Translations under genes and position numbers: made by a program
Origin: Methanotorris igneus Kol 5
GTDB lineage: Archaea > AGJL01 > Methanococci > Methanococcales > Methanococcaceae
DNA: 64,000 nucleotides
NCBI RefSeq assembly: GCF_000214415.1
Contig: NC_015562.1
Span: 558,001-622,000 of the forward strand
Direction of reading: 5' to 3'
Notes under the pieces: generated by a model
What the model saw: only the letters and a program-made list of their open reading frames with translations
Told to the model about the DNA's origin: nothing
Databases searched by the model: none
Part shown: one piece after another, positions 17,891 to 35,816 of the stretch
How positions within the stretch are numbered: position 1 is the first letter of the stretch
Layout of the letters: every line of letters begins with the position of its first letter

Positions 17891-18328
17891 ATGATAATAA
17901 GAGGAATAAAAAATGCCAAAATAAATCAAGACATTTTTAAGTTGAAATTGCCATTTCAAATACTGAATGCAGAGTTAATTGCAACAAAAAAACATGTCCT
18001 TCATGCAATAAATCAAGCAAAAACTAAAAAAAATATTACTAACTCATTTTGGATGGAAATTTTGGTTAGGGCATCGGCACAGAGGCAAATATCAAATGCC
18101 ATAAAACTCCTCGGAGCAAAAGATGGTAATGTTTGCGTGGTTTGTGAGAATGAAGAAGTTTTGAGCAAGGTTTTAGAAATCATTGGTGGAGAAGTAGATG
18201 ATAGCGTTTTAGAATTAAACGAGGAAAAGGAAAAAAAGATAAGAGAGGCATTTGATATTAAAGGGTTTGGTAATGTTGTTGAAAGGGTTTGTGAAAAGAT
18301 TGCAATTATGGAATTAAGGAAGGAGTAA
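17891..18328 (+). CDS. cgi121: KEOPS complex subunit Cgi121
   Basis: 145 residues. Cgi121 (TPRKB) binds Bud32 in the KEOPS complex and helps recruit tRNA for N6-threonylcarbamoyl-adenosine synthesis at A37. Seen: QILNAELIATKKHVLHAINQ, the FWMEILVRASAQRQISNAIK stretch with the typical arginine, and a compact C-terminal α/β part. Start ATG has TAGGTGAAACT upstream. Odd: after the stop codon a two-hairpin element (18338-18397) is followed by a second copy of the last 16 codons plus stop, mostly synonymous, so the gene end seems to have been replaced or displaced. hisD follows. Confidence 0.88.
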   Translation: MIIRGIKNAKINQDIFKLKLPFQILNAELIATKKHVLHAINQAKTKKNITNSFWMEILVRASAQRQISNAIKLLGAKDGNVCVVCENEEVLSKVLEIIGGEVDDSVLELNEEKEKKIREAFDIKGFGNVVERVCEKIAIMELRKE

Positions 18329-18337
18329 CAATTTTCT

Positions 18338-18397
18338 ATACCTCCAAGCGTAGCGAGGAGGTATTTCCATTTGGATGCAACCTTTTTTAAAGGTTGC
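18338..18397 (+). mobile_element. Two-hairpin element, copy 1 (after cgi121)
   Basis: Hairpin 1: ATACCTCC, 11-nt loop AAGCGTAGCGA, GGAGGTAT. Linker contains CCATTTGGAT. Hairpin 2: GCAACC…GGTTGC. Copies with the same layout are at 26855, 58862, 35681 and (minus strand) near 29978-30040. The loop matches GAGCGAAGCGA in the tnpB 3' end. Confidence 0.75.
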
Positions 18398-18448
18398 GTT
18401 GGGAGAGTCTGTGAAAAGATTGCTATCATGGAATTAAAGAAAGAATAA
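18398..18448 (+). pseudogene. Second copy of the cgi121 3' end
   Basis: Reads VGRVCEKIAIMELKKE then stop, against VERVCEKIAIMELRKE in the gene (plus one preceding residue). Of eight differing codons six are synonymous (AGA/AGG, GTC/GTT, GCT/GCA, ATC/ATT, AAA/AAG, GAA/GAG), so this copy looks like a coding end that was once under selection, not a random duplication. Confidence 0.75.
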
Positions 18449-25135: not shown

Positions 25136-25206
25136 TTAGTTTAAACCTTTTTATATTATGTTGCTAAATATACAACAACAAAAATTATCATCAAAAGGTG
25201 AAAATA

Positions 25207-26853
25207 ATGCCAACAATAAATGTGAGGAAATCAGATTTGGAGAGATTAGTTAATATGGACTTATCTGATGCGTTTATAGAGGAAAAGTTTCCTATGATGG
25301 GTGTTGAGGTGGAAGAGGTTTTTGAGGAAAATGGAGAGAAATTTATTCAATTCTCAATAAACCCAAACAGACCAGATTACTTAAGTGCTGAAGGGTTAGC
25401 AAGAGGATTTAGAGGTTTTATTGGAATAGAAACAGGATTAAAGAGATATGATGTTTATGAAAGCGATATAAAAGTTTATGTTGAAGATGTTAAAACAAGG
25501 CCATATATTGCCTTTGCATTGGTTAAAAATGTGCAAATTGACGATGTTGTTTTGGAGAGCATAATAAACTTGCAGGAAAAATTACACTGGACAATTGGAA
25601 GGGACAGAAAAAAGGTAGCAATTGGTATTCATGACGCCAATAAGGTTGAGGCGCCATTTTACTACAAGGAAGTAGATGGAGATGAGATAAAATTCATCCC
25701 ATTAAACTCTGAGGAAGAGATGACACCAAGGGAGATTTTAGAAAAGCATGAAAAAGGAATAAAATACGCTCACTTAATAAAAGACAAGTTTCCAATAATT
25801 TTAGATAAAAATGGGAATGTATTATCAATGCCTCCAATAATTAATGGGATTTTAACAAAAGTTACAACAGAAACAAGGAACTTATTGATTGATGTTACTG
25901 GAACTGATAAAAATGCCGTTGAAAATACCTTAAACATTATAGTAACCGCACTTGCAGATAGAGGAGGAACAATATTCAAAGCTGAGGTAATATACGCTGA
26001 TGAGAAAATAACTTATCCTAACTTAGAACCAAAGGTCAAAGAAACAACTCCTGACTTTATAAACAAAACCTTAGGATTAAATTTAAATGTTGGAGAAATT
26101 ATCTCATGCCTCAGAAAAGGAAGAATGGATGCAGTTTATGAAAATGGGAAGTTAAAAGTATTCATCCCAGCATATAGAGTTGATATCTTGCACGAGGTTG
26201 ATTTTGCTGAAGAAGTGGCAATAAACTATGGATATGATAAATTTGCTGGAGAATACCCAATTATTGGGACAATTGGAGAGGTTGATAAATTAGAGAAAAA
26301 ATGTGATTTTATAAGAGAAGTTATGATTGGATTAGGCTTTTATGAAGTTGTAAACTTAACGCTTTCAAATCAAAAAATATTATTTGAAAATATGAGGTTA
26401 GATGTTGATGAAAAGGATTATATCGAGGTTTTAAAGCCAGCGTCAGTTGAGCATAGAGTTGTCAGAACTTCAATATTACCACTACTTTTGGAGACACTAA
26501 GAATAAATAAACACAAAGAACTTCCACAAAGAATATTTGAGATTGGGGATTGTGTAGTTATAGATGAGAATTTCGAAACAAAGGGAAGAAATATAAAGAA
26601 GATTGCTGGGGCAGTGATTCATCCAACGGCAAACTTCAATGAAATAAAAAGTTATGTTGAGGCACTTTTAAGGGAACTGAAAATTGACTATGAACTTGAA
26701 AACCATTCACACCCTTCATTCATAGAAGGAAGATGCGCAAAAATTATTAACAATGAAAAAGAGATTGGATACTTTGGAGAAATTCATCCAGAGGTTATAT
26801 TGAATTTTGATTTAGAACATCCTGTTGTAGGTTTTGAAATTGAGATTCTATGA
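25207..26853 (+). CDS. pheT: Phenylalanine–tRNA ligase β subunit, archaeal type
   Basis: 548 residues from ATG 25207 (AAAAGGTGAAAATA upstream; the ATG three codons earlier is less well placed). Archaeal/eukaryal PheT lacks the bacterial N-terminal extension, matching the length. Seen: FSINPNRPDYLSAEGLARGF, TIGRDRKKVAIGIHDANKVE, LIDVTGTDKNAVENTLNIIV, AYRVDILHEVDFAEEVAINY, KPASVEHRVVRTSILPLLLE, and the C-terminal IGYFGEIHPEVILNFDLEHP. The α subunit is elsewhere. A two-hairpin element follows the stop codon at once, then a second copy of the last codons. Confidence 0.95.
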   Translation: MPTINVRKSDLERLVNMDLSDAFIEEKFPMMGVEVEEVFEENGEKFIQFSINPNRPDYLSAEGLARGFRGFIGIETGLKRYDVYESDIKVYVEDVKTRPYIAFALVKNVQIDDVVLESIINLQEKLHWTIGRDRKKVAIGIHDANKVEAPFYYKEVDGDEIKFIPLNSEEEMTPREILEKHEKGIKYAHLIKDKFPIILDKNGNVLSMPPIINGILTKVTTETRNLLIDVTGTDKNAVENTLNIIVTALADRGGTIFKAEVIYADEKITYPNLEPKVKETTPDFINKTLGLNLNVGEIISCLRKGRMDAVYENGKLKVFIPAYRVDILHEVDFAEEVAINYGYDKFAGEYPIIGTIGEVDKLEKKCDFIREVMIGLGFYEVVNLTLSNQKILFENMRLDVDEKDYIEVLKPASVEHRVVRTSILPLLLETLRINKHKELPQRIFEIGDCVVIDENFETKGRNIKKIAGAVIHPTANFNEIKSYVEALLRELKIDYELENHSHPSFIEGRCAKIINNEKEIGYFGEIHPEVILNFDLEHPVVGFEIEIL

Positions 26854-26854
26854 G

Positions 26855-26914
26855 AGGATGCCGAATGAAGTGAGGCATCCTATCCTGTTTGGATGCAACC
26901 TTTTTAAAGGTTGC
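26855..26914 (+). mobile_element. Two-hairpin element, copy 2 (after pheT)
   Basis: Hairpin 1: AGGATGCC, 11-nt loop GAATGAAGTGA, GGCATCCT. Linker ATCCTGTTTGGAT. Hairpin 2: GCAACC…GGTTGC. It begins two bases after the pheT stop codon. Same layout and linker as the copy after cgi121. Confidence 0.75.
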
Positions 26915-26916
26915 AT

Positions 26917-26958
26917 TTGGAGCATCCTGTTGTAGGGTTTGAGATTGAAATTGAATAA
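26917..26958 (+). pseudogene. Second copy of the pheT 3' end
   Basis: Reads LEHPVVGFEIEIE then stop, against LEHPVVGFEIEIL in pheT. Codon differences up to the last residue are synonymous (TTG/TTA, GAG/GAA, GGG/GGT, GAG/GAA, GAA/GAG). As after cgi121, the recoded tail lies directly beyond hairpin 2. Confidence 0.78.
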
Positions 26959-29838: not shown

Positions 29839-29977
29839 GTTATCATTTTTTGACTTTATTTACAGCCGTTTACGTTATAAACAATTAAAATCTTCAATGA
29901 AATGAGGTATAAATATGCTTTATTCAAAATGAAACCTTTTAAAAAGGTTGAACAAAACTTATCGATTTTGTGACCCA

Positions 29978-30040
29978 AACCTTTACGGTTTGGTTTCATC
30001 CAAATAGGATAAGATGCTTCGCTTTGTTCGACGTCCTCTC
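29978..30040 (-). mobile_element. Two-hairpin element, copy 5 (minus strand, degenerate)
   Basis: On the minus strand: loop GAACAAAGCGA between weakly paired arms (GGACGTC / AGCATCTT), linker ATCCTATTTGGATG, then hairpin CCAAACC…GGTTTGG. A further AAACCTTTT/AAAAGGTT hairpin follows near 29931-29950. Fits the family layout but hairpin 1 is imperfect. Confidence 0.5.
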
Positions 30041-30103
30041 TTAGACATCCTCTATTGCAAACTACTTTTTAAGAATACTATTTGTTGCTATTTAAAAAAT
30101 TAA

Positions 30104-34559: not shown

Positions 34560-35660
34560 GTTAAAATCAGACCCTTAGGGGGATGGAAATTACTTCCCAC
34601 CTATACATTTTTTTCAATAATTTTTCCATCATCTAGTTAAAATCAGACCCTTAGGGGGATGGAAATGGAACACCATTCAATATTATGAATCTAAATCTTG
34701 GAGTTAAAATCAGACCCTTAGGGGGATGGAAATGAGAAACTTTGAGTTACAAGTATTGCAAACCATAAGTTAAAATCAGACCCTTAGGGGGATGGAAATG
34801 AGAGGGACGACATTAGTTCATTGGATTGTAGAAGTCAATTGCTTTGGCTTTTGATTGACAGTTAAAATCAGACCCTTAGGGGGATGGAAATGTCCCTACC
34901 ATCCAATAAACAGATGGCTCGGGACTGTTAAAATCAGACCCTTAGGGGGATGGAAATTGCTACTAAAACGCAAAAAGTTTAAGGTTAAAGCAAAGAGTTA
35001 AAATCAGACCCTTAGGGGGATGGAAATATTTTTAAGAACTTTAAAACCGAAACATATATATATGTTAAAATCAGACCCTTAGGGGGATGGAAATAATGGA
35101 AAAAGGCACAAAAATGGGCAATATTAAAAATTATTGATTTAGTTAAAATCAGACCCTTAGGGGGATGGAAATATATAATCAATATACAATATATACACAT
35201 GTAGTTTTGTTAAAATCAGACCCTTAGGGGGATGGAAATTGGTATGATTGTAATTGAATTCTAAATAATCTGATTCGTGTTAAAATCAGACCCTTAGGGG
35301 GATGGAAATCTTTTCTAAACCTCCAAGTGTGCTTCAAATCATTAAGTTAAGTTAAAATCAGACCCTTAGGGGGATGGAAATCAACAATTTCTATCTTAAT
35401 ATCACTCTTTTCAACAATTTGTTAAAATCAGACCCTTAGGGGGATGGAAATCAACAATTTCTATCTTAATATCACTCTTTTCAACAATTTGTTAAAATCA
35501 GACCCTTAGGGGGATGGAAATGATGAAGCCCCAAAACCATTAAAAGCCATTTGGAAAGGGTTAAAATCAGACCCTTAGGGGGATGGAAATGCTGGTGGAG
35601 CTGTTAAGTAATTTACATAGATATTAACAGTTAAAATCAGACCCTTAGGGGGATGGAAAT
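34560..35660 (+). CRISPR. CRISPR array, 16 identical 31-nt repeats, 15 spacers
   Basis: The repeat begins GTTAAAATCAGACCC and ends TTAGGGGGATGGAAAT, 31 bases, identical in all 16 copies (starts 34560, 34636, 34703, 34769, 34861, 34927, 34997, 35064, 35142, 35209, 35279, 35351, 35421, 35491, 35560, 35630). Spacers are 35-47 nt except spacer 4, which is 61 nt. Spacers 12 and 13 are identical (39 nt), a local repeat-spacer duplication. A degenerate repeat remnant lies at 35741-35764, after an inserted two-hairpin element. No cas genes are in the window; the repeat type is that of Methanocaldococcus-like genomes with type I-B/III systems encoded elsewhere (inference). Confidence 0.98.
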
Positions 35661-35680
35661 TTTATTTTTACCTAAAAGAG

Positions 35681-35739
35681 GCACTGCCGAGCGAAGCGAA
35701 GTAGTGCATCCCTTTTGATGAAACTTTTCTAAAGTTTCA
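35681..35739 (+). mobile_element. Two-hairpin element, copy 4 (distal end of the CRISPR array)
   Basis: Hairpin 1 GCACTGC…GTAGTGC (one mismatch) with loop holding GAGCGAAGCGA; linker ATCCCTTTTGATG; hairpin 2 TGAAACTTTT…AAAGTTTCA. It lies between the last intact repeat (ends 35660) and a degenerate repeat-like sequence TTAGAGCCTTAGGGGAG at 35741. Confidence 0.65.
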
Positions 35740-35816
35740 ATTAGAGCCTTAGGGGAGTAAAAATCTTAAATTTCTTTTTTTTTCACTGTTTTATGTTAGG
35801 ATTGGGTTCTTGAGTA

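Follow-up and report, generated by a model that had tools for sequence, protein, structure and literature searches.

The two-hairpin element that follows pheT in Methanotorris igneus belongs to a multicopy family of about 70 bp, and the repeated gene tails found beside its copies are duplications tied to insertion of the element, a connection that we regard as solid. The element itself is probably a small, non-autonomous mobile element of thermophilic Methanococcales, whose insertion would be directed by a short core sequence and would duplicate the stretch beside that core. The DNA analysed, here called the window, is the 64-kb stretch from 558001 to 622000 of the 1.85 Mb single-contig genome (G000), and the genome-wide work consisted of searches together with the stretches around element copies.

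The pheT locus and other sites in the window

The end of pheT is followed by the element and then by a second version of the tail (Table 1). The two tail copies form a direct repeat of 38 nt with 33 of 38 positions identical (87%) and a spacing of 105, and the two-hairpin region folds at -28.9 kcal/mol (z -4.7). Read in a 13-codon frame, the upstream copy gives LEHPVVGFEIEIL-TGA and the downstream copy LEHPVVGFEIEIE-TAA. The original prediction described a second copy of 13 codons with silent changes except in the last residue, and this holds inside the repeat, where 100% of the differences between the copies are silent; the change in the last residue comes from the left end of the element (CTATGA), which provides the final codon and stop (CTA TGA). 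It had also proposed comparison with element-free relatives. In the same-genus relative G021 pheT lacks the element and ends in IEIE-TAA, thus the downstream copy in M. igneus carries the ancestral end and the relative presents an empty site. Repeat, fold and relative therefore agree that gene end, element and second tail are real, with the one correction that the repeat starts at 26810, five bases before the start first given.

Table 1. Features of the element sites in the window (window positions)
Feature	Position	Strand	Evidence
pheT, phenylalanine--tRNA ligase beta subunit	25198..26853	+	TIGR00471, 749 bits, E 2e-225
Upstream tail copy, the functional pheT end	26810..26847	+	direct-repeat search
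Element left end CTATGA at pheT	26848..26853	+	compare CTATGAGAG, CTAAGAGG in other copies
Hairpin 1 at pheT	26855..26881	+	folding, z -4.7
Hairpin 2 at pheT; its end overlaps the first bases of the downstream copy	26892..26917	+	folding and family alignment
Downstream tail copy at pheT, followed by ancestral GAA TAA at 26953-26958	26915..26952	+	direct-repeat search; empty relative ends IEIE-TAA
Gene for Cgi121 (KEOPS subunit), second host gene in the window	17891..18328	+	NF011465, PF08617
Upstream tail copy at Cgi121	18278..18328	+	sequence comparison
Element copy at Cgi121; hairpin 1 stem changed, hairpin 2 at 18373-18397	18331..18397	+	covariance model, 74.7 bits
Downstream tail copy at Cgi121, reads VGRVCEKIAIMELKKE-stop	18398..18448	+	sequence comparison
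Element copy at CRISPR array end	35674..35742	+	covariance model, 67 bits; array 34560-35660
Degenerate element copy	29927..30044	-	covariance model, 39.7 bits

The elements at pheT and at Cgi121 are members of the same family, and the Cgi121 site, spanning 18278-18448, has a repeat of 51 nt. At 34560-35742 a copy lies directly after a CRISPR array (DR39 matches), and at several arrays elsewhere (e.g. L188, L155, L187) element copies are followed by a variant repeat, AGAGCCATAGGGGGATGGAAAC.

Structure and distribution of the family

In members of the family a short left end (YTARG) is followed by hairpin 1 and then hairpin 2, and the right end resembles GTTTGA; in the family alignment neither of the consensus ends, TAAGAGGCA and GGTTTCATTT, is an inverted copy of the other. 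A covariance model finds about 80 copies in the M. igneus genome at E < 0.01, a count that includes a few matches to both strands of single palindromic copies, and at E up to 0.01 it finds 30 in G021, 41 in G020, 12 in G010 and 13 in G016. With a DNA query, matches occur in 5 of 22 family genomes. An exact search for the hairpin-2 pattern in genomes and viral contigs found a tRNA-Met copy in a Methanothermococcus MAG, as well as one Methanofastidiosum contig and one viral contig that share the local context and lack a recognisable hairpin 1; a plasmid search returned zero matches. An Rfam scan at gathering thresholds gave no family at the element, its matches being CRISPR repeats and one tRNA only, and a literature search found no published description of the family.

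Units of tail plus element stand in tandem, two to four in a row, at L281, L296, L297, L254 and L165. Other small repeats occur near the copies at L151, L156, L208, L179 and L158; one of these has GCACACAAC ends and a TATACGGCAAAACC hairpin, and it sometimes lies next to or inside the duplicated region.

Duplication of the sequence beside the element

The original prediction that element and repeated tail are connected is borne out in each of four genomes. In a flank comparison that excluded copies adjacent to CRISPR repeats or to other small repeats, adjoining direct repeats were found at 13 of 57 copies in G000, 9 of 24 in G021, 12 of 27 in G020 and 12 of 12 in G010, against 0.81, 0.04, 0.08 and 0.1 expected from mispaired-flank controls; these counts include tandem units at one locus (L165, L254, L281, L296 and L297), and counted by locus the repeats number 12, 8, 9 and 9. 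Copies lacking any flanking duplication had been named as the observation that would make the two original cases a coincidence of unrelated repeats flanking two elements. Such copies are indeed the majority in G000, where most have no detectable repeat, but 13 of 57 against 0.8 expected, together with 12 of 12 in G010, leaves coincidence with practically no chance, and we consider it ruled out by the control.

The repeats begin at the end of hairpin 2 and run for 26-97 bp, with a median aligned length of 42. The suggested guide-length target finds no support, because the length varies over this whole range. For off-target CRISPR adaptation, a duplication of fixed repeat length would be expected, and this candidate was rejected since the length varies, with exact copies of 31 to 55 bp. 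Several repeats are exact or nearly so, namely L250 (55/55), L244 (31/31), L272 (39/40), L295 (36/36) and L297 (45/45). At L244 another species also has the element at the same place, so an exact repeat is not always young and later homogenisation of the copies may occur. In G021 the sites at pheT, HMG-CoA synthase, thiI and ttuA, among others, are empty, and the native ends there line up with the downstream copies; the cleanest case is HMG-CoA synthase (L204 against L220 of G021), where the downstream copy and the sequence following it are collinear with the empty locus. Repeats above chance, their start at hairpin 2, the exact cases and the clean empty site together identify the tails as duplications linked to insertion.

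Target site and host genes

Across 49 aligned copies the native core at the hairpin-2 junction is near GTTCAAAT, and the insertion core resembles the tRNA T-loop sequence GTTCRAAT. At the core the downstream copy tends to GTTTGAAT, which is what insertion would leave if these bases came from the element. In genes for tRNA-Thr, Gly, Met, Ser, Val, Glu, Leu and Ile the core falls within the T-loop, and an intact tRNA stands upstream of the copies; the protein-gene hosts include SelB, SMC, HMG-CoA synthase, ThiI, TtuA, FrhB and a beta-CASP ribonuclease. A comparison of the tRNA part of the repeats with the flank was dropped as evidence of constraint, given that the duplication may simply end near the tRNA.

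As read from the loci rather than counted separately, most repeat-bearing copies lie at gene ends in the sense orientation. The upstream copy keeps the working end, and to this extent the host gene is left whole, as predicted. Targeting of gene 3' ends as such finds no support: the same duplication occurs at tRNA genes, at gene starts (L209 and L244) and in frame at L265 (1-966, G021), where a radical-SAM-like open frame contains the element, flanked by a short in-frame repeat (RGNMLI / RGDDILI). What the sites have in common is a GTTCRAAT-like core. Given hosts of these kinds, the prevalence of gene 3' ends probably reflects which insertions survive and not where the element is aimed.

Silent differences between the copies

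As pheT alone has too few sites for an argument from codon positions, loci were pooled. Among 30 tail pairs, hand-picked and some of them found via protein alignment, which favours silent pairs, there are 85 silent and 27 non-silent changes, or 76% silent (bootstrap 66-86%). In a simulated null with only silent changes upstream and free change downstream, 39% are silent (sd 4%). A recount by hand, with the protein-alignment pairs dropped and frameshifted pairs added, gave about 67% silent. In 11 loci polarised with outgroups about 10% diverged, so that parallel changes are possible, 20 changes are specific to the upstream coding copy and 13 to the displaced downstream copy, the opposite of what neutrality predicts. 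Where both species carry the element (L183/L249, L158/L257 and L171/L263), either copy can be the odd one.

Simple duplication followed by decay does not explain this silent excess. With 39% predicted against 76% found, and the coding copy the more changed, the later history needs either imported tails or a downstream copy that is still selected. Nor does insertion in itself explain the 'recoding' of the tail, in that some copies are exact and the excess needs a further process. We prefer a reading in which the gene end would recombine with element-free relatives, importing diverged but functional tails.

Mechanism and alternatives

In the explanation that we consider probable, an activity supplied in trans would insert the element at a GTTCRAAT-like core, which is the T-loop motif of tRNA genes and would also arise by chance in coding sequence. 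Joining of the right end at the core, and of the left end about 26-97 bases beyond it, would duplicate the stretch in between. If a gene end is no more than a few dozen bases from the core, the gene or tRNA would stay complete through the upstream copy, leaving the downstream copy as a displaced relic; insertions elsewhere in genes would mostly be lost, and such survivor bias may be why gene ends predominate.

The search for a mover used three enzyme models. The reverse transcriptase model PF00078 is absent from G000, G021, G010 and G016, with control matches in three genomes. An IS1634-type transposase is over the cut-off in 0 of 22 genomes (control matches in five named genomes, over the cut-off in one). 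Tyrosine integrases occur both with and without the element, and none correlates with it. All three were rejected as the mover on these searches, and because none of the models found it we infer from the geometry of the sites that the element is joined in trans, by a staggered or target-primed route. Among the five element-bearing genomes the sole reverse-transcriptase match is L304 (G020:C1:26095-26718), in an open frame of 1116 residues.

Continued selection on both copies would follow if recombination between them often removed the element, so that the downstream copy became the gene end and mainly silent changes accumulated. This agrees with the changes of the displaced copy, 7 of 13 being silent where about a quarter are expected, with argF (L254), whose middle and outer tails differ mostly silently, and with the tandem units at L281, L296 and L297, which suggest recombination between repeats; against it are the downstream frameshifts and missense changes at L219, L174, L247 and L218 and the small sample, and we consider it unlikely, if worth keeping in view. 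Microhomology-driven template switching is a weaker candidate: replication would leave the target for an element copy at YTARG and come back upstream at GTTNRA, so that the intervening stretch would be duplicated without any dedicated enzyme. Short target identity at both junctions in several copies (GTTTGA / GTTCRA; TTTAGRTT, CTACGAGA, TTACTAAG) and the variable repeat length would suit it, but a defined core common to 49 copies and consistent element ends exceed what random switching would give.

Also improbable is an exchange specific to each gene, in which element and gene tail would excise as a circle between the cores at the start of the upstream copy and after hairpin 2, and enter the same gene again in a different cell or species; the donor would then have supplied the upstream tail, the downstream one being native, as in phages that integrate at a gene or tRNA 3' end. 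The T-loop-like core with reconstitution of the gene matches T-loop integration, the silent excess would be accounted for, and at HMG-CoA synthase, thiI, L255 and L260 the downstream copy matches the relative's native tail and the upstream copy has changed. However, integrases do not produce de novo duplications, and these are needed to account for exact repeats at many unrelated genes. A circle of only about 110 bp would also be very small, the presence of integrases does not track that of the element, and at L246 and L248 the downstream copy has changed as well. We are correspondingly doubtful that an element of about 70 bp without its own gene moves from species to species carrying a copy of a single gene's 3' end and gives the recipient a functional donor tail.

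Comparison with known systems

Integrative elements and phages that use T-loops or gene 3' ends (e.g. mycobacteriophage Ms6, PMC1762012) share with the element a T-loop core, a gene rebuilt upstream and a relic downstream. Unlike them, it is about 70 bp, non-coding and without an integrase gene, and instead of one fixed attachment segment it has dozens of unrelated sites with a repeat specific to each. Rickettsia palindromic elements, of which in-frame cases have been described (PMC10969869), are small palindromes in genes; here there is one clear in-frame copy (L265 of G021), whereas most repeat-bearing copies lie at gene or tRNA ends with long duplications.

IS1549 and IS1634 (IS1634 family, IS4 superfamily) insert with long, variable direct repeats of 8-514 bp, as does the element with 26-97 bp, several of them exact. 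Members of that family are 1.5-2 kb with their own transposase, in contrast to about 70 bp here, and the IS1634 transposase model passed the cut-off in none of the 22 genomes searched; the element also differs in that its ends do not form inverted repeats. Like MITEs and REP sequences the element is non-autonomous, hairpin-forming and multicopy, but unlike MITEs it has no terminal inverted repeats and has a long target duplication; as to a related autonomous element in the same genome, the IS1634 model, the one transposase family searched, gave nothing over the cut-off. Target-primed retroposons of the LINE/SINE type have a fixed 3' end, a variable 5' end, variable duplications and short target identity at the joints. 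The element resembles them in these features and differs in that no reverse transcriptase was found in G000, G021, G010 and G016.

Implications

The element represents an apparently undescribed multicopy family in thermophilic methanogens, with a target rule that is testable. For insertion with long duplications a mechanistic model had not yet been proposed (PMC2266710), and the gene-sparing long duplication described here is of this kind. The silent excess, if confirmed, points to frequent excision in these cells or to exchange of gene ends between lineages; were the element itself to carry the tails, the ends of essential genes and tRNAs would be exchanged between lineages by a gene-less element of roughly 70 bp.
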